Made by a program: the position numbers and the translations under genes. Shown piece after piece: positions 1-11,305 of a stretch of 23,900 nt of DNA (positions are counted from its first letter, which is position 1; each line of letters starts with the position of its first letter). The stretch spans positions 1-23,900 of the IMG/VR virus record IMGVR_UViG_3300037549_000073. One strand, 5' to 3'. Under the pieces are notes generated by a model that made no database searches, had not been told where the DNA came from, and saw only the letters and a list, made by a program, of their open reading frames with translations. Source of the DNA: a virus.

Positions 1-3000
1 CGCGAGAGATCAGGCCGGCATCGAACAGGGTGCGCAGGGTCTGGTGGTTGATGGCGTAGACGCGCGCCGCGACCGCCTTGAAGTCGGCCGCCCTGGGGAG
101 GAAGCGGCTCAAAATATCCCGCGCCTCGTTGCGCGAAAGCCCGGAGGCGCCGGTGATATCGTGATCGTTGATCGCCCGGTTGAAGTCGCTGCCCGGCGGG
201 TGCAGTGCGCCGACGGCCTCGTTGCGCTCTACCGCGTGCCGCGCCATCAGGAATTGGTCGAGTTCTTCGCGGGTGATGCCCCGCGCCTTCATTGCGGCGA
301 TCAGCGGATCGATGCTCTCCCGATCGAGCCGTTCCAGCTTCTCGCCGGTGCGGCCGTAATAGAGACTTTCCGCCTGATAGGCGCTGAGCGCGGACTGGGT
401 GTTGCCGACCGACTGCTCGGCCTTCAAAACGCGATTGAACTTGTCCTGCAACTGAACGCGGGCTTCGGTGGCGTTGAGGTTGCCGAGCTTGCCGAGGGTA
501 CGGGTGCGGAGAATGTCGCCTATGCTGTTGTCGAAAGACCCTGCCCGTTTGAAGGCGTTATCCGGCTCGGAGAGCCCTAATGAACCGTCCTCTTTTGGTT
601 CACCATCCATCGGGCGTGCTGAACCGCCAGATCCTTGCCTAGGAAATCCGGCATTGCCAGCACTTCGGCCAAAAACCGCTCCCATGTCTCCAGGGTGTCG
701 AAGGGGTCGGGCTCGTCCAGCATTACCAGGGGCTTTGTCATTGCCGAAAAATCCTTTGCGCACGCTCTTGGCGATGGCGGTCATGGCATCATGTAGGCCG
801 GGAACGTCACGAACTAAAGTGCCGGGGTCGTAGTTCGTTTCGTAATCGACGATCCCCGCGTCTCTCAGGACCGTATTGACGAGATGGGCGTAAGCGGCGT
901 TGACGTGATCCACTATCTCGGGATTACGGTTGACCTCGGCCTGAAGGATGGCAATCAGCCTCTTCGATATCTGGTCGTAGTCCTGCTTCAACCAGAGGAT
1001 CGGATCAGGAGAACTTTGCTTCAGCTTTGCCTTTGCAGCGTCGGTCAGGTTGACGCGGTATCCGGCCCCTTTGTGGCCATGCGCCCATACGGCGTGGACA
1101 CCAGGCGCCCCCAACAAGGAGATGTCGGAACCGCTGAAACTCCGGTTTTTTGGATGGTTGTGATGGATGACGACACTCTCATCGGGATTCATCAGCCGGG
1201 CATCCAACTCGGGCGGAATATCAATGCGGTTATGGGAGCCTTCGTAGGCACCGATCTCCTTGCCGTTTTCGTCGATGGCGGAAAGGTGCTCGTTGCCGGT
1301 CGCGAGGCCGCGCGCAAGAACCTGATCCTGCGCCCGCGCGCCGGGCGCGATATGGTCCGGCTCCGGTTTCTTGGCCTTCGGCGGCTCCGGTGACTTCGGC
1401 GGCTCTGTGCCGGACTGCTCGTCGAGGAACTTCTGGCGATCCTCTGCCGACTTGAACTGGAAGCCCGGAATGGCGCCCTTCTTGTCGTAGGAGCTGTAAT
1501 ATCCGCCATGCTTCTTGGCGGACGCCGCCATCGCGTCATAGGTCGGCCGATCCGCGCGCGAGGTCGGTGTCGCCACGAACAGCTTGCCGCCGGTCTTGGC
1601 GTGGATCGTCTCGCCGGTCTTGTATTTCATGCCGGACGGAGCTGATACTGGTCCTGCCGCTCCGGAGGTTTGCTGCGCCTCATCTTCCTTCGGCGGGTTG
1701 GCCAGCGCGTCGAGGAACGCCTGCCGCTGCTCGGCCTTCTCGAACACGAAGTCCTTGCCGGAAGCCCCGCCGCCGTTCGCCTGCGCCAGCTTCGCCAGAT
1801 CGCGGTATTTGCCCGGCCCGACGCGGGCTTCCAGGCTGGCGGTTACCATCTTGTTGGGCAGCGACCGCAGCTTGAATTCGACGCCGGCAATGGTGACGTT
1901 GCCTTCGGTCGGGATATCGACGTCCTTGGTCTTCGGCTCACGCCGCTGGCCCATGTCCGCGTTTTCGATGCGGTCGAACAGATCGTTGATCTTCTCGACA
2001 TCGGTGTAGTCGCGGTTTTTCGGCTGCGGCATCGACCGGGCGATTTCCGGATCGGTCTGCTTTTCGAGCACAATGATGTGGGTCATGGCGCTTGTGCCGG
2101 CCCGCTCGAACGTCACCGCCGGCAGATCGATAGCGCCAACGAGGAAAAGGTCGTTCTTGCCCTCAAGGAATTCGACCAGTCGCTTGTCGGCCATGCCGCC
2201 CCTCGGCAGCAGCGCCACGATGCGACCGCCGTTCTTCAGGTGGGCGACAGCCTTGGAAAGGTGCTCGATCGCCGTCTTGCCGCCGGCGCCAAAGGGCGGG
2301 TTCATCACGATGGCGTCGAACTTGTTGGCGGGGATGCTCAGGTTCTCGAAGCGGTCCACGACAACGCGGGCGCCCGGCGAAGACAGCGCGGCGCGGCCGG
2401 CGAGGCTCGACGACGGCTCGATCAGGGTGCGCGCGGTATCCTCGGGGAAGTACCTCGAGATCGCGCCGTGACCAGCCGACGGTTCGAGGATCTTCTCGCC
2501 AGATTTGAGCGCGGCGAACTCGACCATCTTCAGGCCGATGGGTTCCGGCGTAGCGAAGTAATCCGCGCCCTCGCGCTGGTCGCGGCGGGCGCGGTTCTTG
2601 CCCTGGCCGAAATAGTGCGTCTTCGCCTTCTCGAACTCGGAAATGCTGTGCGAGGTCGCCGCGTCCGCGACCTTGCCACCCTTGCCTTCGCCCGGCTCCG
2701 GATCGAAATTGTCGGCATCGTTGAAGGCGTCGATATAGGACTGCTTGATGGTGCGCGCGACGTCGCCGAGCGCGAGGTTTTCGGCGGTCCCGGCCCGCTC
2801 GGCGATCTTGCCGGCGAAGGTCCATCGCTCCCAGGACGTTCCCGTGTTCATGTACCGGAAAATGGCGTCGGAGGCTTGGCCTACACGATATGTGCGGCCC
2901 TCCTGCTGGATCGCCGTCGTTGGCCGGACGGGCATGCCAAGGTTGACGGTGACGCGCTGCCGCTTGCCGGTGGTGTCGTGCAGGCTGATCCCTGCTTCAC

Positions 3001-6000
3001 CAGCGGCCGACTGCACGATGATGATGTCGCGCCCGCTGTTGTCGTCGTTGAACAGCCGCTTGGCTTCGTTGCGGATCTTGTTCGAGACGGTGCCGTTATA
3101 GATCAGCGCGTTCGGGAAAGCCTGCTGCAATGCATAGATCGGCGCTTGCAGGTCAGAGAATTGCAGGTTCTTAACCCAAGGATTGCGATCGAGGAACTCC
3201 TTGTAAAGCTCGGCCGGCTTGACCTCGGTGGCGTCCTTGCCGTGGCCGACCGAAATCTTGACGTTCGGCGGGATATCGAGAATGAACGGCGAGATACCGC
3301 CGCCCTCGTTATAGTCATGGAACACCACGACCTTGCGGCCGAGATCGAGCGACTTCTGAATATAAGGAATGGCGTGCTCGGCCTTGATGGCTTCCAAGAG
3401 CCGCATCCGCGTCAGATAGTCGAATTTCTTCGCGACCAACTCATGCAGCGGGCGGAACTTGCCGTCGTCCGCGTCCTGCAAGAATTCGAGCGCCTTATCG
3501 ATCTGGTTGCCGATCGCGTCGTCGACCAAAAGGAACTTGCGATCATAATCACGGTCGACGGTCAGCGCGCGTCCGGACAGCGAGCCCTGGCGCTTGAGAT
3601 ATTCGTGAAGCTGCCGCTCCATCACCTCGCCGCGAACGTCCGCGTCCGGCTTGGTAAGCTTGTTGGTCCGCATCCGGTAGCCGAGATGCTGCATGTAGAA
3701 CTTGTCGCGACCGCTGCCGGAATTGTAGCGGGCGCCATCTTCGCGCTCATGCTCGAAGAGATAACCCTCCGCATAGTCGAGCGAGAAATGATAGGCGAAC
3801 GGCGTGGCCGACATCATCAGCGTCTTCGGCCGCGGGGTCGCGCGCCACTTCTCGATCAGCGGCTCGGCTTTCTTGTAGAGCGCAAGATAGGCGTCGTCCC
3901 GCTCCTTACTGCCCTTCGGCAGGCGATCAGCCGCGTCGTATTCGTCGCGCAGCACCATCTCGGCGCGGTGGTTCATGCCGTCCGGGTGCAGCGTGATCGC
4001 GCGCAGCGTCCGCAGCGCGGCGGTCGTGGTGCCGTTCTGATCCGACGACAGCTTGTGCGCCTCGTCGGCGACAACCAGATCCCAATCGCGGTCGGCCAGA
4101 TGCCGGTTCGCGCCCATGTTGGCATAGGTCGTGGCAACGATGCCCTTACCCTTGTCCTGGGTGTCGCCGAGAACGGAGACGTCGAGGCCAAGATCTTTCG
4201 CCGACTTCACCCAATCCATGAGGATGCCTTGCGACGGCGCCACGATAAGGGTGTTCTTCTTGCCCTGCATCGCAAAACGCTTGATGACGCCAAGGCCGGA
4301 ATAGGTCTTTCCCGTGCCGGTGCCGTTGGTGAACAGCATCCCGTGGCCGTCCGGCTTGGCGAAGCGTTCTTCGGCTTTCCGCACGTCATCGTGCTGCTCG
4401 GGGAACAGCATCGGCAGCGTATCGGCGATATTGCCGATGTCGCCGGGAACAACTTTCGCGCCCTCGGCCCGGCGCTGCCGGTCGCGGCGCGCGGTTAGGT
4501 CGGCTTCTTTGCGAGCATTTTCGATAGTCTGTTCAGTTGAGGTACGTTCAAGCGGAAGTCGTCCCTCGCTGTCGTCAGAGCCTCGTTCCGGCTCTCCTGG
4601 GGCGGCATCGCCACTCTCATACTCGGGTTGTCGAGCAGGAAGTTCGAGATGGCCGTCCGCTCCCACAACAGGGGCATGATCTTCAGGTACGCCGCCGCCG
4701 TCTGCACGTCCGTCCCCTCCGCTACCAACCGCTTTTCCTCGCGCGCGAGAGCCGCGTCCAGTTGATCCTGCGGTAGAGGAAACATCTGCCTTGCCCACTC
4801 CGTCGCCAGATGTTGCGTTTCCGCGATCTGGTTCCAGTACGTCGCCGCTACCTGATGCATCGAGGTTTTCCTTGCCGGATTGAACGTCTTCGACGAACCG
4901 GACGATGTAGGGTTTCATCTCCCGAATGGCGTCGGGCGCCATGCCGCCCTTGTTCAAGTGCTGGATCAGACCGCGCACCATGCCGGTGACGTCGCCCGCG
5001 TCCTTGAAGTGCGAGACGCCTGCCTTGAAGAACGGGAGCGCCTGGCGATAGGTTGCGTCATCGAACGGCTCGGCATCCTCGAACAGGCCCCGATCCTCGG
5101 ACAGTCCGGGCTTCTTGCCGAACAGTGCGTTTAGGCCCTTGGCAACGTCATCGAGGCCCATCGGCTTCGGTGCGGCTGGGCGCGAGGGCGCCGGGTTTAG
5201 ATCCGCAGCGGGCGGCTTTGCCGCTCTTACCTTTGCCAGTAACTCATGCTTTTGCGCTGGCGTGAGGTCGTCGTATTTGTCGACGCGGTTGTTGGTTATC
5301 GCCTTCATGGCATCGAAGGCGATTTCGTGCTGCTTCGTCCTGCCGTCCTTGTGCATCGGCAGTTGGTGCAGGATTTCCGCCCATGTCGGTGCGTCACGCG
5401 CGGCGCGGCGCTCGGCTGCGGTCGGCTCGGTTTTGGCGGGACGTTCCTTCTTTGCCTGCCCTTCGACGCGCACGACGTCGGTGGTGCGCGGGCCATCCGC
5501 ATCGCCGAACAGTATGTCGTTCACGGTGTCGCGGTCGGACTGGCTGAAATTCTTCGGGTCGATCCCCTTCACAAGCGTCTGCTGCCAGTCGTTGCCGGTC
5601 GCCTGCGCTTCCTTCTTGGCCTCCGATACCAGCCATGCATCGAGGCGACCGAGCGAGGCCGTGGCCTTGCGCTCGCTCGTCATGTCGATCTTCGGCGCGG
5701 GTGATGTCTCCCGGCCGGAAACCGTCCTGATGACGACGCCGGTTTCGATGATCGGCTTGCCGCGCTCGCCCTCTGGCTTCTCGCCGAATTCCTCGCCCAT
5801 CACGTCGTCGAAGATGTCGGAAACGCTCTTGGGTTTGTCCTTCGGTTTCGCGGTTTCCGGCTCGGCCTTTTTGGGGGTCGACCTCTCAGCGGCCTCACCT
5901 GCCGCCTTCATCATGATGTCTTTGATGTCGAGCAGCGAGGCTCGGTTCGCGACAGCGCGCAGGAAGGCGTCTCTTGCCGCGGCGTAAACCGGCTCCGGTG

Positions 6001-9000
6001 AAGCTCCGCGCCATTTGCCGCGGGCCTCATTGTCGAGATAGACGCCAATCTGTCGGTTGACGTCTCTTTCGACGTCGTTGAACGCAACAGCCCTTTCAGG
6101 GTCGCCAGCCAGGATCGCCGCCGCACGCTTTACATGGTCGGATGTTGGCTTGAAATTGACGTGAACAAACGGATCTTTGTGGCCCGGCAAGGTAATCGCC
6201 GCATCGCGCTGCGCCTGCGTCATGTCCGCGGGTGCGCGAGTCGTCGGGTGGATGGTGAGCTCTCGCGCCTTCGCGCCGGCCAGCAGTAACTCGTGCAGCC
6301 GCTCTTTCGAGCCTCCAACTGCTTTCAGCAGATCGCCGATATAGACGATGCCGGTGGCCGCATTGAGCTTGTCATATGCCTTGCGGACGTCTTCGAGAGT
6401 GAGGTCTTTGGTGGGCTTCTCGACCGCCGGCTTCTCTGTGCGCGGGCGCTGTATCCAAAGCACATGGAACGGTTCGCCGGCCGGGTTGTAGGCGGCATCC
6501 TGCATGGCCTTGTCGATCTGCTTGGGATCGTCGTGGCGCATCAGGCTCGCCGTCTCGTCGCCCTTCAAAATGCGCTTCAGGCCCGCGTCGACTTCGGCCC
6601 GGCTCAGATCGGGCAGCGCAGCGCGGATCTTCGCGAGAGATGCGCTCTCGGCGTATTTCCCGCCGGTGACCTTGAGGTAGGCGTCCTCTATGCGGTCCCT
6701 GATGGCGTCGTCGGCATTTTCGGCGGCAGGCTTGTTTTCAGCGGTGTCGCCGGCTTTGTCCCCAGCGGCTTCGTTCCCGCCGGCGGCTGGCTTGAGGGTG
6801 CCGCCAGTCCGGGGATTGCTGGCAGCGCCGCCACCTTCGGCCGTTTCATCTTGTGCGCCAGTCGCGCTGCCGCCCTTAACGACCTCAGTTTTTGCTGAAT
6901 GACCGGGGCCGACTTCCCCAGATGTGGGGCGTTCTTGCTCAGGAGATGTGCCGCCGCCAGATGTCCCTTGGCGTCCGGCGTCCAGTACTGTTTCGATTTC
7001 GGGGCCATATGCCTTCTCTGCTTCCGGTTCGGGAACGAACTTCTGACCGACGAGGTTCTCGACGACCGCTTGGCCGAACGCGGTTTCCGGAGCCATGCCG
7101 TCATTGTTGGCGAGGATTTCCGCCGCGCGCGCCTTGTCGACCGGGAGCACTCCCTCCGCATCCGGGCCGAGCGCCTTGTCGATGTCGGCGTGATGCTTGG
7201 CTGACGGCTGGATGAAGTCCATCAGGTCGGTCTGCTTGTGACCGTCCCCGAACAGGCCGTCATCGGCGGCTTTCTGCGCCACGCGCGGCTTCAGTCTGGC
7301 GTCGGCGCCGCGCTGCGCCATCTGGCCGTCGCCGGCCTTCTCAGCTCCGGGGATTACCGTCTGCGGCTTGTTGTCGGCGCCGGCTTCGGTGGTTGTCCGC
7401 GGGAAGGCCCGGCGGATCGCTGCCGCAAGATCCTTGCCGCGCAACTCGATCCTGCCGAACGGGGAGATCGTGATCGTGACGACCTTGCCGCGGCCCTCGA
7501 CGTTGCCGCGCTCGATGCTGCGACCGCCGTAGCTCTCGCTCCATCCATGCTTTGAAAGGGTGTCGATCAGGTCAGCGTCGGAGGCGCCTCGATCGATCGC
7601 AGCCTGGACCGCGCGCTCTCCACCCTGATTGACGGTGGAAACCGCCCGAACGGCGGCGTCGATATAGTGCTGCCTGCTGCCGGCTACTTCTTCGGCGGGT
7701 TCTTCCCGGCGTTTCTCGCCATCGCCGTCGCCAGCCTTCGGAACCTGTCTGCCATCTCGTTCTGCTTCTTTGCCTTCGCCGGGTCGCTCTCCGTCTTCGC
7801 CTTCTCCTTCAGGAGCCCAGCCATCTTCATATGTTGCTTCGGGGTGAACTGTTGCATCGTATGCTCCGTACCCGTAAATATCATAAAGCTCGCTCTTGGT
7901 CACTCCGTAATCGGGGTCATCCGCCACTTCCGGCACCAGCCGGGCGGCAGCTCGGCCAACCGCGCTATGCGGATCGGTTTCGCCTTCGTCGGCCATGATG
8001 CGAACCGCGAGCTCGCGGTCCTCCGGGTGTATGTCGGCATATCCAGCGGCCTCGATAGCCCGCCGCGCCTCGCCGTAGTATTCCTCGTCGCGCTCGCGCT
8101 CGTGGGCATCGCGCTCCGCGTCGAGGGTGTCCTGAGCCTTGGTCTGGTAAAGCTCGTCGCCCTCGGGGAAGCGGTGCTTCTTGGCGATACCGTCGCGGAC
8201 AGCCTCAACGAGGTCGTCCCCGGTGATCCGATCGTCCTTGGACCAGTAGAAATGCTGCTGCGCCAGGTTGGCCATGTCGTCGGGCGAAAGGCCGCGCTTG
8301 TTGTTCACCAGCGCAGGAAAGCCCTTATGGCCTTTCGGCATCGAGACGATGTGCTTGTGCGCGTCCATCGCTTTCAGCTCAGGACCGTATTTGACGCCTT
8401 TGACCTTTAGGCCGCCCTTGCTGACGATGAATTGCAGCAGGTTCAGCGGCTCGGCGCCGCCCGGCTTGGGTGGTGACCTGGGAGCGGGTTTTGCCTCGGA
8501 AGCCGGCTCCGCATATGGCTTTTCGGGTGGTGACCTATCGGCGGGTTTTTCGCTGACCGGCTTGGTGGGCTGCTCGGGCTGCGCCGGGCGTTTGGCCAAA
8601 TCCGGTATTACGGGATGCTGCCTGATCCACGGCGGTTGCAGTCCGTTCGGATAGTCGGCCGGCTTGGTGTGGTCGGCGAATTTCAACCAAGCTTTGAACT
8701 GGCCCGGCGTGTAGGCGACAACGCCGCCGATGCGATCGCCGCCGCCATCGGTGTAGGAATTCGCGTAGGCGTGCATCGCGTCGATCGGGGTGCGAAAGCC
8801 CGCCAGAATTTTGTGCTCGTCGAACCCTTTGCCGCCTGCATGGTGCTGGTTGATGATGAAGACGTGCGGGCTGGTCGGATGCGGGCCGATGAACACGTCC
8901 AGCGGCTCGCCGTCGGCGCCCTTGGTCCCCTTGATCCTGCCATAAGCCGCGTGCTCCATCTTTACGGACCACGGCTTGCCGTCGGGGTCGGCGCCTTCGC

Positions 9001-11305
9001 GTGTGCCGCCAACGCCAGTCTCGACACTGATCGAATTCTTGCCGCTCAGGCCGAGATGCGGCATTTCGGCATGGCCGTGCTTGAAGTTCTCGGCCTGCGC
9101 TTGGGCCGGCGTTGGCTCCGCGGCTACTTCGCCAGCGCGAACCACGTCATCAGCGGTCTTGACGACAACCGGCTTATCGCGCGTACCGTCGCCTGTCGGC
9201 TCGCTCGGCTTGGGAGTTTCCGGCGACTTTGGAGCAGGCTTAGAGTGCTTCTCGACCAGCGCCCGCATGTTCTTCTGGAAGTTCGCATCGCGCTCAATGC
9301 GAGATTGTTCGTCGGCGAACGCCTTAAACTGGTCGATGGTTTGCAGACCGCCACGCGCCCTGACCATCTTGGCCGCTTGCAAGAGGGCGCTAGGTCCGCC
9401 GGTGCTGTTCTCGCTGGTTTCGCCGGCCTGCACGCGCGCCCATAGATGGTCGCGTAGGCTGTCGCCGATGCCCTGCGCCATGCCCTTGAGGCCAGCCTTG
9501 AGGCCGGTGCTGTCGTCGTCTGATTGCGGCTTCGGCTGCTCGGGCGGTCGCTCTGCGCCGCCGCCGCGTCCTACGGCCTCCTGGTATCGCCGCCGCCGCT
9601 CCGATGGCGACATGGCGCGCACGAGGCTTTCGGGCCAGCCTTTTCGAACGAGGTATTCGCGCTCGGTGCGCTCGCTCGCGGCTTCCTCGCGCGCGGCGAC
9701 TTCTTCCGGCGTCTCGGGCTTGGCCGTGTGGCCGGTGCTCGATGTGTCGCGCAGATGCTCGTTGACGGCGTTGAACAGCTCGTGGTCGGCCAGCTTGCTC
9801 GGGTCTGATCCCGGCTCAAAATGGCGATAGACCTTCTCCATCTTGGCGCGCGTCTTCGCGTCCATCGTGAAGTCGGGGCCTTTGCCTTCGCCGCTGCCGG
9901 GCGGTGGTTTGCCGGCACCAGGACCGGGGCCGGCACCAGGACCGGGGCCGGCACCAGGACCGGGGCCAGGACCAGGACCAGGACCGGGGCCAGGACCAGG
10001 ACCAGGACCGGGGCCGGGACCAGGACCGGGACCGGGGCCGGGACCAGGACCGGGGCCAGGACCAGGGCCAGGACCGGGGTCCTGTTCCCATCGCTTGCCG
10101 TCGGCGGACGGTCTGTATTTCGCGCCGGTGCGTTTGTCGGTCCATGTTTCGCCGAAGTCGTCGGTGTCCCAGTGCGGATCGTCGGTCGGCGGCCGACTTC
10201 TCATCCGGTTGCCGTCGTCAGGTGGCAGCTCGCCCGGCTTCTTCTCGAATAGATGGTGCAGTCCGCCCATGCCGGCGCCGAGGATCAACTCGGCGATGAG
10301 GCGCTTCTGATCGAAGGTGTAGCCAGCTTTCGGGTCGTAATCCTTCTTGATCTGTTGAAGCATCGCTTCCTGCGCTTCACCAGCGGTCGCGAAAGCGGCG
10401 CTGGATGACGCGACCTTCCCGATGAGGCTCTGAGCATACTTGCCGGCACCCAGCGGCAAGCTGCCGAGAACACCAGCGACCAGCGCCGAACGACCGGCAA
10501 CTGAACGCGCAACGTCTTCGCTCGCGCCGTCCTTGATGGCCTGTTCATAGGTCGAGCCGTAGGTATCGGCCGCCATGCCCGTGAAACCAGCCGCGATACC
10601 GAGCGGCGCGTTGACCAGCGTGGCCGCAGCATAAGGCGCGATCGACCCGATCCCCTTTCCGACGCGACCGGCGATCGAGTCGTTTTCCTGATCCGTCATC
10701 GGGATGTTGTCGCGGCCGAACTGCTGGACCGCGTTGCCGGCGCTGACCAGTTGCGGGCCAAGCGGATGCTTTGCCTGTTCGGCGCCAAGCTGCGCTTCTT
10801 GGGCTTTCTGTGCCGCGAGCGCGGCCGGATCGTTGATGACGCCGCTGAATTGGTTCGAGACGCTGTTGGCATCGCCCATCGCGTCGATGGTCGGCTGCCC
10901 CTGCGAAATCAGCGTGCCGGCACCCTTGAGAATGCCGCCGGCACTCTCGATCGCCCCAGCGGGGATACCCTTGAGCAGCGCCTTGGCGTTGCCGGCAACG
11001 CCGAGCGGTTCCTCTGGCTCCTTGTCGGGCTCTACCAGATCGCCATAAGACGACGGCGGTTTAGTGATCGCGCCGGGCGCTTTGACAATATCGCCATAAG
11101 ACGACGGCGGTTTTACTTCCGGCTCTTTCGCGTCGATGTGCCGCGTCTTGCGGTCCTGTCGTCGCGCGACCGCATCCGCGAGCCGGCCGGGATCTACGGG
11201 ATAGCCTGGGCCGACATCCTCGGGGAAAACTTGACGTGCGAGATCGTCGACGCCCTGCCCTGGATCATACGGGGCATCGCTACCGAAAGCGTCGAAGAGA
11301 CCCAT
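1..11305 (-). CDS. Giant phage polyvalent protein (helicase, methyltransferase, pyrophosphatase-like, JAB), 3' end outside window
   Basis: I read this frame codon by codon from ATG 11305 to the left edge and found no stop, giving at least 3768 residues. Order: MGLFDAFG start; two KPPSSYGD repeats (about 65-95); hydrophobic segments (about 215-350); Pro-Gly tract (410-464); InPase-like domain (about 770-880); several charged linkers; DEAH/SNF2 helicase (about 2310-2850); N6-adenine methyltransferase (about 2900-3090); duplicated small domain (3152-3297); JAB/MPN motif (3382-3394); helical C-terminal region (from about 3585). This is the architecture of phage and mobile-element polyvalent proteins, which are thought to be delivered with DNA to modify it or counter host defence. 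The start lies 5 bp after the upstream stop, with AGGAAG about 10 nt before it. Long plus-strand frames here are antisense shadows. Four linkers overlap small ORFs in another frame. Delivery and anti-defence roles are inference. Confidence 0.93.
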   Translation of the reverse strand, partial: MGLFDAFGSDAPYDPGQGVDDLARQVFPEDVGPGYPVDPGRLADAVARRQDRKTRHIDAKEPEVKPPSSYGDIVKAPGAITKPPSSYGDLVEPDKEPEEPLGVAGNAKALLKGIPAGAIESAGGILKGAGTLISQGQPTIDAMGDANSVSNQFSGVINDPAALAAQKAQEAQLGAEQAKHPLGPQLVSAGNAVQQFGRDNIPMTDQENDSIAGRVGKGIGSIAPYAAATLVNAPLGIAAGFTGMAADTYGSTYEQAIKDGASEDVARSVAGRSALVAGVLGSLPLGAGKYAQSLIGKVASSSAAFATAGEAQEAMLQQIKKDYDPKAGYTFDQKRLIAELILGAGMGGLHHLFEKKPGELPPDDGNRMRSRPPTDDPHWDTDDFGETWTDKRTGAKYRPSADGKRWEQDPGPGPGPGPGPGPGPGPGPGPGPGPGPGPGPGPGPGPGPGPGAGPGPGAGPGPGAGKPPPGSGEGKGPDFTMDAKTRAKMEKVYRHFEPGSDPSKLADHELFNAVNEHLRDTSSTGHTAKPETPEEVAAREEAASERTEREYLVRKGWPESLVRAMSPSERRRRYQEAVGRGGGAERPPEQPKPQSDDDSTGLKAGLKGMAQGIGDSLRDHLWARVQAGETSENSTGGPSALLQAAKMVRARGGLQTIDQFKAFADEQSRIERDANFQKNMRALVEKHSKPAPKSPETPKPSEPTGDGTRDKPVVVKTADDVVRAGEVAAEPTPAQAQAENFKHGHAEMPHLGLSGKNSISVETGVGGTREGADPDGKPWSVKMEHAAYGRIKGTKGADGEPLDVFIGPHPTSPHVFIINQHHAGGKGFDEHKILAGFRTPIDAMHAYANSYTDGGGDRIGGVVAYTPGQFKAWLKFADHTKPADYPNGLQPPWIRQHPVIPDLAKRPAQPEQPTKPVSEKPADRSPPEKPYAEPASEAKPAPRSPPKPGGAEPLNLLQFIVSKGGLKVKGVKYGPELKAMDAHKHIVSMPKGHKGFPALVNNKRGLSPDDMANLAQQHFYWSKDDRITGDDLVEAVRDGIAKKHRFPEGDELYQTKAQDTLDAERDAHERERDEEYYGEARRAIEAAGYADIHPEDRELAVRIMADEGETDPHSAVGRAAARLVPEVADDPDYGVTKSELYDIYGYGAYDATVHPEATYEDGWAPEGEGEDGERPGEGKEAERDGRQVPKAGDGDGEKRREEPAEEVAGSRQHYIDAAVRAVSTVNQGGERAVQAAIDRGASDADLIDTLSKHGWSESYGGRSIERGNVEGRGKVVTITISPFGRIELRGKDLAAAIRRAFPRTTTEAGADNKPQTVIPGAEKAGDGQMAQRGADARLKPRVAQKAADDGLFGDGHKQTDLMDFIQPSAKHHADIDKALGPDAEGVLPVDKARAAEILANNDGMAPETAFGQAVVENLVGQKFVPEPEAEKAYGPEIETVLDAGRQGTSGGGTSPEQERPTSGEVGPGHSAKTEVVKGGSATGAQDETAEGGGAASNPRTGGTLKPAAGGNEAAGDKAGDTAENKPAAENADDAIRDRIEDAYLKVTGGKYAESASLAKIRAALPDLSRAEVDAGLKRILKGDETASLMRHDDPKQIDKAMQDAAYNPAGEPFHVLWIQRPRTEKPAVEKPTKDLTLEDVRKAYDKLNAATGIVYIGDLLKAVGGSKERLHELLLAGAKARELTIHPTTRAPADMTQAQRDAAITLPGHKDPFVHVNFKPTSDHVKRAAAILAGDPERAVAFNDVERDVNRQIGVYLDNEARGKWRGASPEPVYAAARDAFLRAVANRASLLDIKDIMMKAAGEAAERSTPKKAEPETAKPKDKPKSVSDIFDDVMGEEFGEKPEGERGKPIIETGVVIRTVSGRETSPAPKIDMTSERKATASLGRLDAWLVSEAKKEAQATGNDWQQTLVKGIDPKNFSQSDRDTVNDILFGDADGPRTTDVVRVEGQAKKERPAKTEPTAAERRAARDAPTWAEILHQLPMHKDGRTKQHEIAFDAMKAITNNRVDKYDDLTPAQKHELLAKVRAAKPPAADLNPAPSRPAAPKPMGLDDVAKGLNALFGKKPGLSEDRGLFEDAEPFDDATYRQALPFFKAGVSHFKDAGDVTGMVRGLIQHLNKGGMAPDAIREMKPYIVRFVEDVQSGKENLDASGSGDVLEPDRGNATSGDGVGKADVSSTAGSTGRGSRARGKAVGSGGDGRADGGGVPEDHAPVVGADGHLELPARQPEYESGDAAPGEPERGSDDSEGRLPLERTSTEQTIENARKEADLTARRDRQRRAEGAKVVPGDIGNIADTLPMLFPEQHDDVRKAEERFAKPDGHGMLFTNGTGTGKTYSGLGVIKRFAMQGKKNTLIVAPSQGILMDWVKSAKDLGLDVSVLGDTQDKGKGIVATTYANMGANRHLADRDWDLVVADEAHKLSSDQNGTTTAALRTLRAITLHPDGMNHRAEMVLRDEYDAADRLPKGSKERDDAYLALYKKAEPLIEKWRATPRPKTLMMSATPFAYHFSLDYAEGYLFEHEREDGARYNSGSGRDKFYMQHLGYRMRTNKLTKPDADVRGEVMERQLHEYLKRQGSLSGRALTVDRDYDRKFLLVDDAIGNQIDKALEFLQDADDGKFRPLHELVAKKFDYLTRMRLLEAIKAEHAIPYIQKSLDLGRKVVVFHDYNEGGGISPFILDIPPNVKISVGHGKDATEVKPAELYKEFLDRNPWVKNLQFSDLQAPIYALQQAFPNALIYNGTVSNKIRNEAKRLFNDDNSGRDIIIVQSAAGEAGISLHDTTGKRQRVTVNLGMPVRPTTAIQQEGRTYRVGQASDAIFRYMNTGTSWERWTFAGKIAERAGTAENLALGDVARTIKQSYIDAFNDADNFDPEPGEGKGGKVADAATSHSISEFEKAKTHYFGQGKNRARRDQREGADYFATPEPIGLKMVEFAALKSGEKILEPSAGHGAISRYFPEDTARTLIEPSSSLAGRAALSSPGARVVVDRFENLSIPANKFDAIVMNPPFGAGGKTAIEHLSKAVAHLKNGGRIVALLPRGGMADKRLVEFLEGKNDLFLVGAIDLPAVTFERAGTSAMTHIIVLEKQTDPEIARSMPQPKNRDYTDVEKINDLFDRIENADMGQRREPKTKDVDIPTEGNVTIAGVEFKLRSLPNKMVTASLEARVGPGKYRDLAKLAQANGGGASGKDFVFEKAEQRQAFLDALANPPKEDEAQQTSGAAGPVSAPSGMKYKTGETIHAKTGGKLFVATPTSRADRPTYDAMAASAKKHGGYYSSYDKKGAIPGFQFKSAEDRQKFLDEQSGTEPPKSPEPPKAKKPEPDHIAPGARAQDQVLARGLATGNEHLSAIDENGKEIGAYEGSHNRIDIPPELDARLMNPDESVVIHHNHPKNRSFSGSDISLLGAPGVHAVWAHGHKGAGYRVNLTDAAKAKLKQSSPDPILWLKQDYDQISKRLIAILQAEVNRNPEIVDHVNAAYAHLVNTVLRDAGIVDYETNYDPGTLVRDVPGLHDAMTAIAKSVRKGFFGNDKAPGNAGRARPLRHPGDMGAVFGRSAGNAGFPRQGSGGSARPMDGEPKEDGSLGLSEPDNAFKRAGSFDNSIGDILRTRTLGKLGNLNATEARVQLQDKFNRVLKAEQSVGNTQSALSAYQAESLYYGRTGEKLERLDRESIDPLIAAMKARGITREELDQFLMARHAVERNEAVGALHPPGSDFNRAINDHDITGASGLSRNEARDILSRFLPRAADFKAVAARVYAINHQTLRTLFDAGLISR
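577..741 (-). CDS. Small ORF (54 aa) embedded in a linker of the giant gene, +1 frame
   Basis: ATG at 741, TAG at 579-577. The protein starts MTKPLVMLDEPDPFDTLE and ends WMVNQKRTVH. It has a balanced, helix-prone composition with three tryptophans/phenylalanine-rich turns and looks like a genuine small protein, although it is short. An AAAGGA sequence lies 10 nt upstream (752-757). In 601-720, hand-counted third-position GC is 31/40 in this frame but 14/40 in the overlapping giant frame, whose residues here (about 3522-3577) are Gly/Ser/Arg/Pro/Glu-rich. Function unknown. The alternative is a chance open frame, which the reversed third-position signal argues against. Confidence 0.68.
   Translation of the reverse strand: MTKPLVMLDEPDPFDTLETWERFLAEVLAMPDFLGKDLAVQHARWMVNQKRTVH
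1040..1330 (-). other. Domain: JAB/MPN (RadC-like) metallopeptidase fold of the giant protein
   Basis: Residues about 3325-3420. The motif HNHPKNRSFSGSD gives H3382-x-H3384-P followed by S3391-x-x-D3394, matching the JAMM/JAB zinc-binding pattern H-x-H-P-x(n)-S-x-x-D. It sits after the duplicated small domain. Such domains are widespread in phage polyvalent proteins; the substrate cannot be told from sequence. I did not securely identify the upstream catalytic glutamate. Confidence 0.75.
1415..1852 (-). other. Tandem duplication of a small domain in the giant protein
   Basis: Two related segments lie between the methyltransferase and the JAB domain: residues 3152-3201 and 3241-3297. Each starts with a beta-like KxxxAT/KMVTAS stretch and ends in a (F)-x-F-x-(K/S)-A-E-x-R-Q-(K/A)-F-L-D pattern. 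The second copy keeps a HGGYYSSYDKKGAIPGFQF core and the first has a shortened, glycine-rich version. This is probably an internal duplication with one degraded copy. I do not know the function. Confidence 0.6.
2040..2620 (-). other. Domain: N6-adenine DNA methyltransferase of the giant protein
   Basis: Residues about 2900-3090. An AdoMet-binding motif I, EPSAGHG, lies at 2941-2947. The catalytic NPPF motif lies at 3002-3005 within the context DAIVMNPPFGAG. Both are hallmarks of amino-methyltransferases acting on adenine in DNA. The domain follows the helicase directly, which suggests the pair acts on the same DNA, for example by methylating incoming phage DNA to avoid restriction. Target sequence unknown. 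Confidence 0.88.
2750..4380 (-). other. Domain: SNF2/DEAH-type superfamily 2 helicase of the giant protein
   Basis: Residues about 2310-2850. Walker A is NGTGTGKTYSG (catalytic lysine 2333). It is followed by the motif Ia-like stretch NTLIVAPSQ, Walker B VVADEAH (DEAH at 2414-2417) and a motif III-like LMMSATPF. The C-terminal lobe ends in motif VI QQEGRTYRVGQ (2800-2810), with the two arginines expected to act as arginine fingers. The set and order fit an intact SF2 ATPase. Helicases of this type next to an adenine methyltransferase are typical of phage and plasmid polyvalent proteins. Confidence 0.9.
4495..4860 (-). CDS. Small helical protein (121 aa) embedded in a linker of the giant gene, +1 frame
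   Basis: ATG at 4860, with AAGGA 8 nt upstream (4869-4873). The protein begins MHQVAATYWNQIAETQH and reads as an ordinary, probably all-helical cytosolic protein with well-spread W, Y, F, L and charged residues. There is no signal peptide or membrane segment. The overlapping giant frame (residues about 2149-2271, just before the helicase) is a Gly/Ser/Asp/Arg-rich linker. Over 4502-4861 third-position GC is 95/120 in this frame and 50/120 in the giant frame, the opposite of the giant gene's domain regions (about 90%). I therefore take this as a real gene. Function unknown; its position beside helicase and methyltransferase domains suggests a related early or accessory role (inference). Confidence 0.8.
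   Translation of the reverse strand: MHQVAATYWNQIAETQHLATEWARQMFPLPQDQLDAALAREEKRLVAEGTDVQTAAAYLKIMPLLWERTAISNFLLDNPSMRVAMPPQESRNEALTTARDDFRLNVPQLNRLSKMLAKKPT
6688..7008 (-). CDS. Small basic protein (106 aa) embedded in a linker of the giant gene, +1 frame
   Basis: I chose the ATG at 7008 because the sequence from MAPKSKQYWTPDAKGHLAAA onward looks like protein, whereas the frame upstream is Arg/Ser-rich noise. AGAAGG lies 3 nt upstream (7012-7017), a short spacing. The first 60 residues are basic and helix-prone (HLLSKNAPHLGKS, RAAARLAHKMKRPK) and could bind nucleic acid. The rest is Pro/Ala/Thr/Lys-rich and probably disordered. Third-position GC is 71/96 here against 57/96 in the giant frame, a weaker contrast than for the other embedded ORFs, especially in the C-terminal half. 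Function unknown. Confidence 0.58.
   Translation of the reverse strand: MAPKSKQYWTPDAKGHLAAAHLLSKNAPHLGKSAPVIQQKLRSLRAAARLAHKMKRPKVAALPAIPGLAAPSSQPPAGTKPLGTKPATPLKTSLPPKMPTTPSGTA
7684..7857 (-). CDS. Small basic helical protein (57 aa) embedded in a linker of the giant gene, +1 frame
   Basis: Start chosen at ATG 7857 (MQQFTPKQHMKMAGLLKEKA) because GGAG lies 6 nt upstream (7864-7867). An in-frame ATG at 7884 has no good ribosome site. The protein is lysine-rich and helical, with an ESDPAKAKKQNEMADRFRRL segment. From memory this resembles small hypothetical proteins of rhizobia and their phages. The overlapping giant frame (residues about 1150-1208) is a Glu/Gly/Asp/Arg-rich linker. Third-position GC is 51/59 in this frame against 24/59 in the giant frame. 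Function unknown. Confidence 0.76.
   Translation of the reverse strand: MQQFTPKQHMKMAGLLKEKAKTESDPAKAKKQNEMADRFRRLATAMARNAGKNPPKK
8660..9000 (-). other. Domain: phage inorganic-pyrophosphatase-like (InPase) domain of the giant protein
   Basis: Residues about 770-880 of the giant protein contain AAYGRIKGTKGADGEPLDVF followed by IGPH (tyrosine at residue 788). The acidic, glycine-rich G-x-x-G-A-D-G-E-x-(L/V)-D-V-F-I-G pattern is the signature of the InPase-like domain found in phage polyvalent proteins. It resembles the metal-binding acidic cluster of soluble pyrophosphatases. Boundaries are approximate and no activity is shown. Confidence 0.72.
9914..10078 (-). repeat. Pro-Gly coding tract with degenerate 6/15/18-bp repeats
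   Basis: The giant gene encodes alternating Pro and Gly for about 55 residues (410-464), with alanine replacing proline three times near the end. The DNA is a mosaic of CCAGGA/CCGGGG units. Three copies of an 18-bp unit lie at about 9911-9966, and shorter units fill the rest. Proline and glycine codons alternate between CCT/CCC and GGT/GGC, so the tract is not a perfect simple repeat. It probably forms a flexible spacer between the hydrophobic N-terminal part and the rest of the protein. Confidence 0.9.
11040..11113 (-). repeat. Two copies of a 23-bp repeat, 51 bp apart, encoding KPPSSYGD
   Basis: The bases TCGCCATAAGACGACGGCGG and three following Ts occur at 11040-11062 and again at 11091-11113. 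The period is 51 bp, that is 17 codons, so both copies encode KPPSSYGD in the giant protein. The reading frame is kept, which points to an internal duplication or a short linear binding motif. Confidence 0.85.

Follow-up and report, generated by a model that had tools for sequence, protein, structure and literature searches.

The DNA analysed here comprises positions 1-23,900 of the IMG/VR virus record IMGVR_UViG_3300037549_000073, and "the window" refers to this whole 23,900-nt stretch. Its minus strand carries a giant gene of the polyvalent, DarB-like type, and four small open reading frames (ORFs), s1 to s4, lie inside it in a different frame. Our data indicate that s1 to s4 are very probably protein-coding genes nested in the linkers of the giant gene, the giant frame running through these resident genes. 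As judged from aligned sequences, the small gene is the constrained product in each overlap, and the giant frame is an unconstrained, stop-free linker. The features concerned are as follows:

2..11305, minus strand: giant polyvalent (DarB-like) gene, with its ATG at 11305 and an open frame of at least 3,768 codons that exits the window at the left end
577..741, minus strand: s1, nested +1 gene, 54 amino acids, conserved core DxPxPxDTLxxW; 19 nested loci (window included) and 1 free-standing relative
4495..4860, minus strand: s2, nested +1 gene, 121 amino acids, predicted all-helical; 55 loci, all nested in +1
4861..4880, minus strand: ribosome-binding region of s2, AAGGAAAA, duplex -5.4 kcal/mol
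6688..7008, minus strand: s3, nested +1 gene, 106 amino acids, conserved N-terminal part and Pro-rich tail; 7 loci, all nested in +1 with ATG
7684..7857, minus strand: s4, nested +1 gene, 57 amino acids, lysine-rich and helical; 8 nested loci with the ATG conserved, the weakest of the four

The original prediction for this DNA had claimed that four ORFs share the +1 frame of one giant gene, that each has a Shine-Dalgarno-like sequence, and that each lies where the giant protein is low in complexity; all three observations were borne out. The start coordinates of s1 to s4 are 0 mod 3 and that of the giant gene is 1 mod 3, which places the four in +1. Pairing between the start regions and the 16S tail averaged -5.5 kcal/mol for s1, -6.9 for s2, -5.1 for s3 and -6.6 for s4, compared with -2.5 kcal/mol for background ATGs in the giants, with p values from 0.003 (s3) to 1.5e-27 (s2). 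The giant-frame sequence across each ORF ranked in the 4th-16th percentile for entropy and in the 90th-98th percentile for disorder-type residues. Longer versions of s3 (from 7161) and s4 (from 7884) are possible, yet the conserved starts are the ATGs at 7008 and 7857. Searches of Pfam and PHROGs returned no credible family for s1, s2, s3 or s4, and in the annotated relatives examined no inner gene was annotated separately.

The mere presence of the four ORFs shows no excess over chance. The giant gene holds 74 same-strand nested ORFs of at least 35 codons (38 in +1 and 36 in +2), and 25 nested ORFs of at least 54 amino acids that have a start codon. The shared phase, which the original prediction had offered as an argument, was dropped as evidence because it follows from codon composition: the +1 frame is rich in ATGs (6,095 background ATGs in the giants, against 476 in +2) and the frame that the giant gene needs is poor in stops. 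When the codons of the small genes were shuffled, the frame giving +1 stayed open with a probability of 0.22-0.50, and the other frame with a probability of 0.001-0.08. What sets s1 to s4 above chance is that their conservation exceeds that of the giant frame. Among the 74 nested same-strand ORFs, the nested frame was better conserved than the giant frame only in these four, with the rest at zero or below.

Selection was assessed on frame-neutral nucleotide alignments, in which differences were classed as amino-acid changes in one frame only (giant or small), in both frames, or in neither of them. The ratio of nonsynonymous to synonymous substitution rates (dN/dS) in the small frame was 0.33 for s2 (close pairs), 0.47 for s3, 0.64-0.68 for s1 and 0.82 for s4 (interval 0.64-1.05), while distant s2 pairs gave a saturated value of 0.77. 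Over the same bases the giant-frame dN/dS was 1.02-1.24 (s1 1.0, s2 1.04 in close pairs, s3 1.24, s4 1.12). In the flanking giant sequence the relation was reversed, with 0.30-0.63 for the giant frame and 0.77-1.00 for a virtual +1 frame, and because of this reversal between overlap and flank the selected frame switches at each small gene. Across s2 the giant frame was free of stops in 55 of 55 copies, against 11.7 expected (GC content 36-70%). In summary, s1 to s4 each have a conserved start, an open frame and purifying selection in the inner frame, the last being marginal in s4. The original prediction would have suffered had the small products lacked constraint or had relatives lacked an open +1 frame; the frame-wise dN/dS comparison that it proposed found purifying selection in the small frame, and the small genes are constrained and nested in +1 across relatives.

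In terms of distribution, tblastn with s2 identified Ruegeria phage 45A6, Vibrio phages 1.232.O and D274, Klebsiella phage ZX1, Pseudomonas phage Skulduggery and Serratia phage Parlo, and in each of these six s2 lies within a giant gene, in +1 and unannotated. A profile scan returned 51 viral contigs, two of which had already been picked up with s2 alone. The total for s2 is 55 giants from phages, prophages and plasmids of alpha-, beta- and gammaproteobacteria, including a Comamonas plasmid and two Acinetobacter records (GC 36-38%); all 55 copies are nested in +1, and 54 start with ATG and one with GTG. The gene s1 was found at 20 loci, 19 of them nested, s3 at 7 (the window and six relatives) and s4 at 8. 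In phage records tblastn with s3 and s4 found no credible relative, and a Cupriavidus plasmid match to s1 was not strong enough to be taken for a free copy. In an Acinetobacter baumannii VB31459 plasmid record (L102, 6388-11874) the polyvalent gene occupies two open frames, and s2 stays nested in the helicase part.

A blind scan was also performed, in which all same-strand nested ORFs of 78 giants were compared all against all and a family was defined by three or more loci. It yielded seven nested families (s1 to s4, F5, F6 and F7), all in +1. The nested frame was the more conserved one in 1232 of 2534 +1 pairs and in 0 of 1659 +2 pairs. The antisense "families" of the scan were rejected, since the two positive ones in the window oppose s2 and s3 and are their shadows. 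F5 is nested in giants of Agrobacterium, Ochrobactrum, Vibrio, Pseudomonas, Erwinia, Klebsiella and Microcystis phages and of rhizobial prophages, and F6 is short, with four loci. A reading of F5 as the C-terminus of a 2,185-amino-acid protein (PHROG 938) was discarded: F5 is nested in the relatives, and it is joined upstream only in Sinorhizobium phage PBC5 (L008, AF448724), by a frame change. In that phage, around 7100-8400, the giant is annotated as orf33 and orf23, the reading frame changing close to residue 2070 of orf33, probably through a recent frameshift or a sequencing error. In Pseudomonas phage Itty13 (L107, MW460249; 7905-19163), the three genes annotated in the giant region lie opposite to the open giant frame, in which F5 is nested. 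Another possible nested +1 pair, L027 7813-8023 and L029 8860-9127, is 59% identical in the nested frame and 41% in the giant frame, and is limited to two loci.

F7 is nested in +1 in three giants (L009 7030-7594, L010 6526-7039 and L065 8626-9076) and belongs to the HNH endonuclease family PHROG 3377 (E 8e-45 to 1e-50), although Pfam HNH models gave no match in the two F7 proteins scanned. Its relatives occur in 972 phage records, and the family is common as an ordinary phage gene. The flanking domains are no more than 21 residues apart in L013, L015 and L016, compared with about 120-160 in L009 and L010. Because relatives have these short empty sites, F7, a putative endonuclease, most likely entered an existing giant whose frame continued through it.

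The linkage of the small genes to particular parts of the giant protein depends on its domains, which are given here:

8681..9106, minus strand: InPase domain (giant residues 734-875), Pfam 3.5e-34
2759..4408, minus strand: helicase region (giant residues 2300-2849), 3' of s2, Pfam ResIII 2.8e-11 and Helicase_C_4 1.6e-9
about 2210-2491, minus strand: methyltransferase domain, after the helicase region, Pfam MTS 3.5e-4
746..1420, minus strand: predicted JAMM/MPN-like metallopeptidase domain, upstream partner of s1, assigned from signature and model

The Pfam matches (InPase, ResIII/SNF2-type helicase, Helicase_C_4 and methyltransferase) place several effector or DNA-processing domains on one polypeptide. 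Virion genes adjoin it, and its relatives carry the annotations DarB-like, PLxRFG or DNA methylase. In the domain before s1, the JAMM signature residues E44, H87, H89, S96 and D99 (E, HxHP, S, D) are invariant in 16 sequences. The AlphaFold2 (AF2) model has a predicted local distance difference test score (pLDDT) of 89.8, and its best PDB matches are MPN/JAMM1/RadC, though with E > 0.01, so that the modelled likeness to these folds is weak but consistent. The giant protein also has a glycine-proline dipeptide repeat (GPGPGP...) at about 9890-10080 of the window, where both strands have long open frames.

The small genes travel with specific domains. The JAMM domain lies upstream of s1 in all 19 fused giants (171/171 pairs), and the sequence downstream varies (52/171). 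The upstream domain is likewise constant for s3 (21/21 pairs) and s4 (27/28), whereas s2 shows the opposite pattern, the helicase lying on its downstream side (1322/1378 pairs). The JAMM-s1 unit of Ruegeria phage 45A6 precedes s2 and does not follow the methyltransferase. These sequence arrangements indicate that domain and small gene form movable cassettes. One copy of s1 stands free. On a 9.6-kb contig (L072), a 560-codon gene encodes a Phage_Mu_F domain (3.8e-8) and a C-terminal JAMM-like domain that matches the domain before s1 (independent E-value 4e-33). This MuF-JAMM gene stops at TAA, and the s1 ATG, preceded by GGAGGA, comes three bases after that stop; no giant frame runs across s1. 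The small gene behind the MuF-JAMM gene of Dorea phage DO134P1 was considered as well and is not s1-like.

We propose that the small genes are most likely translated by internal initiation on the mRNA of the giant gene, each from its own Shine-Dalgarno sequence and start codon. The giant frame would cross each small gene in the stop-poor frame and would encode a disordered linker there, so that its sequence would hardly matter and openness would be what is required. At least some of the small genes probably existed beforehand, s1 as the partner of a domain gene, retained at fusion, and the HNH gene of relatives as a mobile gene that entered the giant. Capture by fusion past a partner gene in the case of s1, and by insertion in the case of F7, is supported by the sequence comparisons.

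The original prediction had suggested that small genes once lay between separate domain genes and stayed functional when these fused. This model suits s1, which is found free after a MuF-JAMM gene, but it finds no such support in s2, s3 and s4, for which no free copy was found and nearly all relatives are fused. The comparison with split giants, proposed as its test, gave a similarly divided result: s1 is free in L072, but the only split giant is that of PBC5, which concerns another nested gene and is likely a frameshift or error. As for overprinting as a route to polyvalent proteins, the giant frame does appear to pass through resident genes (s1 and the HNH gene), although the HNH case looks like insertion and not fusion.

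The most serious alternative concerns the origin of s2 to s4 and would leave the genes real. If the giant came first, its disordered linkers may have spawned +1 ORFs by de novo overprinting, which is the usual source of viral overlaps (PMC8227390). The linkers are disordered and tolerant, the giants abound in +1 ATGs, and s2, s3 and s4 were not found free. However, the HNH family, as a common ordinary phage gene, cannot have arisen anew in three giants, s1 is free beside the same domain, and s1, s3 and s4 are each tied to a single upstream domain, with differing domains downstream. We regard a de novo origin of s2 to s4 as possible but rather unlikely; birth in a linker is likewise possible for F5 and F6. 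Programmed frameshifting out of the giant frame, which would yield truncated giants with alternative ends and not separate small proteins, is very improbable. It would account for the uniform +1 frame, and several small frames have no close in-frame stop upstream (at least 14 codons for s3 and s4), but start codons and strong Shine-Dalgarno sequences are conserved, protein conservation starts at the ATG, and in 16 of 53 s2 copies a small-frame stop lies no more than 5 codons before the start. Open frames arising by chance in GC-rich DNA, with conservation as a shadow of the giant frame, would fit the abundance of nested ORFs noted above but are hardly credible, since the frame-specific test refutes them (conservation is higher in the small frame than in the giant one, and the overlap shows the reverse pattern of selection), s2 is present at GC 36-45% as well, and no +2 pair behaves in this way.

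Several points weigh against our reading of s1 to s4 as nested, resident genes. The small products are known here from sequence alone, with translation and function inferred. The single free s1 is on a metagenomic contig, and no free copy of s2, s3, s4, F5 or F6 was found among the relatives searched. The constraint on s4 is weak or marginal, divergence in distant pairs is near saturation, and the loci are variously related, so that the counts are not numbers of independent events. In an Aquimarina plasmid (Bacteroidota; L103, 8902-12242) the same helicase is a separate gene, followed by a JAB-domain gene, and s2 was not detectable beside it, from which it follows that s2 is not required everywhere. 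For s2, profile and fold searches found no credible PDB match and no BFVD match, and any role for it is a guess.

The functions of the nested genes can be addressed by their positions. Within the phage collection, the six phages that match s2 at E 1e-5 or better are also those with the helicase-methyltransferase region, which makes s2 a likely partner of this module; its AF2 model is all-helical with a pLDDT of 95.3. The gene s1 directly follows the JAMM domain and travels with it, the arrangement of a toxin-immunity pair. By analogy, the small products may be partners of the linked domains, s1 serving the JAMM domain as its antidote or in assembly and s2 being a partner of the helicase-methyltransferase, but this is a tentative proposal, and the specific role of s1 as the antidote of the JAMM domain, though reasonable in view of the MuF context, is just as tentative. 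That giants grow by absorbing and keeping whole genes, and that all seven nested families were captured, is conceivable and falls somewhat short of an even chance. If true, a giant effector and the small partners that serve it as antidotes or loading factors would come from one mRNA and the same DNA, and the overlap would hold each effector domain and its partner together as a single movable cassette.

Conserved phage gene families have thus escaped annotation, probably because nested ORFs are discarded by the pipelines. The findings suggest a concrete route to phage proteins of 3,000-5,000 residues, and offer candidate partners for DarB-type injected effectors. They also reverse the usual view of overprinting, in that the inner gene is constrained and the larger protein is a passenger in the overlap. 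Nested genes, overprinting and polyvalent proteins are each already known. In the open-access literature we found no earlier description of a type of giant gene that holds seven conserved nested families and whose own frame is neutral across them, as tested for s1 to s4.

Embedded genes of phages include phiX174 E in D and lambda Rz1 in Rz. These resemble s1 to s4 in that a whole small gene lies within a larger one in another frame; they differ in that in the giants the larger frame evolves neutrally where the two overlap, one host gene holds several unrelated inner genes, and at least one inner gene family appears to be an older mobile gene. The embedded Rz1 gene is also described in PMC9144972, a paper in which virions of phage JC1 proved to contain its DarB-like protein. 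The F7 genes of L009, L010 and L065 belong with the phage HNH endonucleases of PHROG 3377, and differ from them by being nested in +1 in a giant gene that stays open.

P1 Ulx, encoded beside DarB, aids the localisation of DarB in the head (PMC9024508). The nested genes may be likened to it, as small protein genes at a DarB-type giant, by position and role only, and Ulx differs in being a separate gene. Among the MuF polymorphic toxins, a small putative immunity ORF comes directly after the toxin gene in 89% of cases (Jamet et al. 2017, PMC5576092). The likeness is that of an effector domain followed by a small gene, with L072 encoding a MuF protein with a JAMM domain and then a free s1; the difference is that s1 of the window lies inside the giant reading frame, the toxicity of the domain and the immunity role of s1 both being putative. 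Polyvalent proteins of phages and conjugative elements, including DarB-like giants, have been described by Iyer et al. (2017, PMC5512222), in a text from which the word "overlap" is absent. The giant of the window resembles them as a multi-domain protein that combines helicase, methyltransferase and InPase domains and whose gene adjoins virion genes, and differs from them in that its linkers hold conserved genes in another frame.

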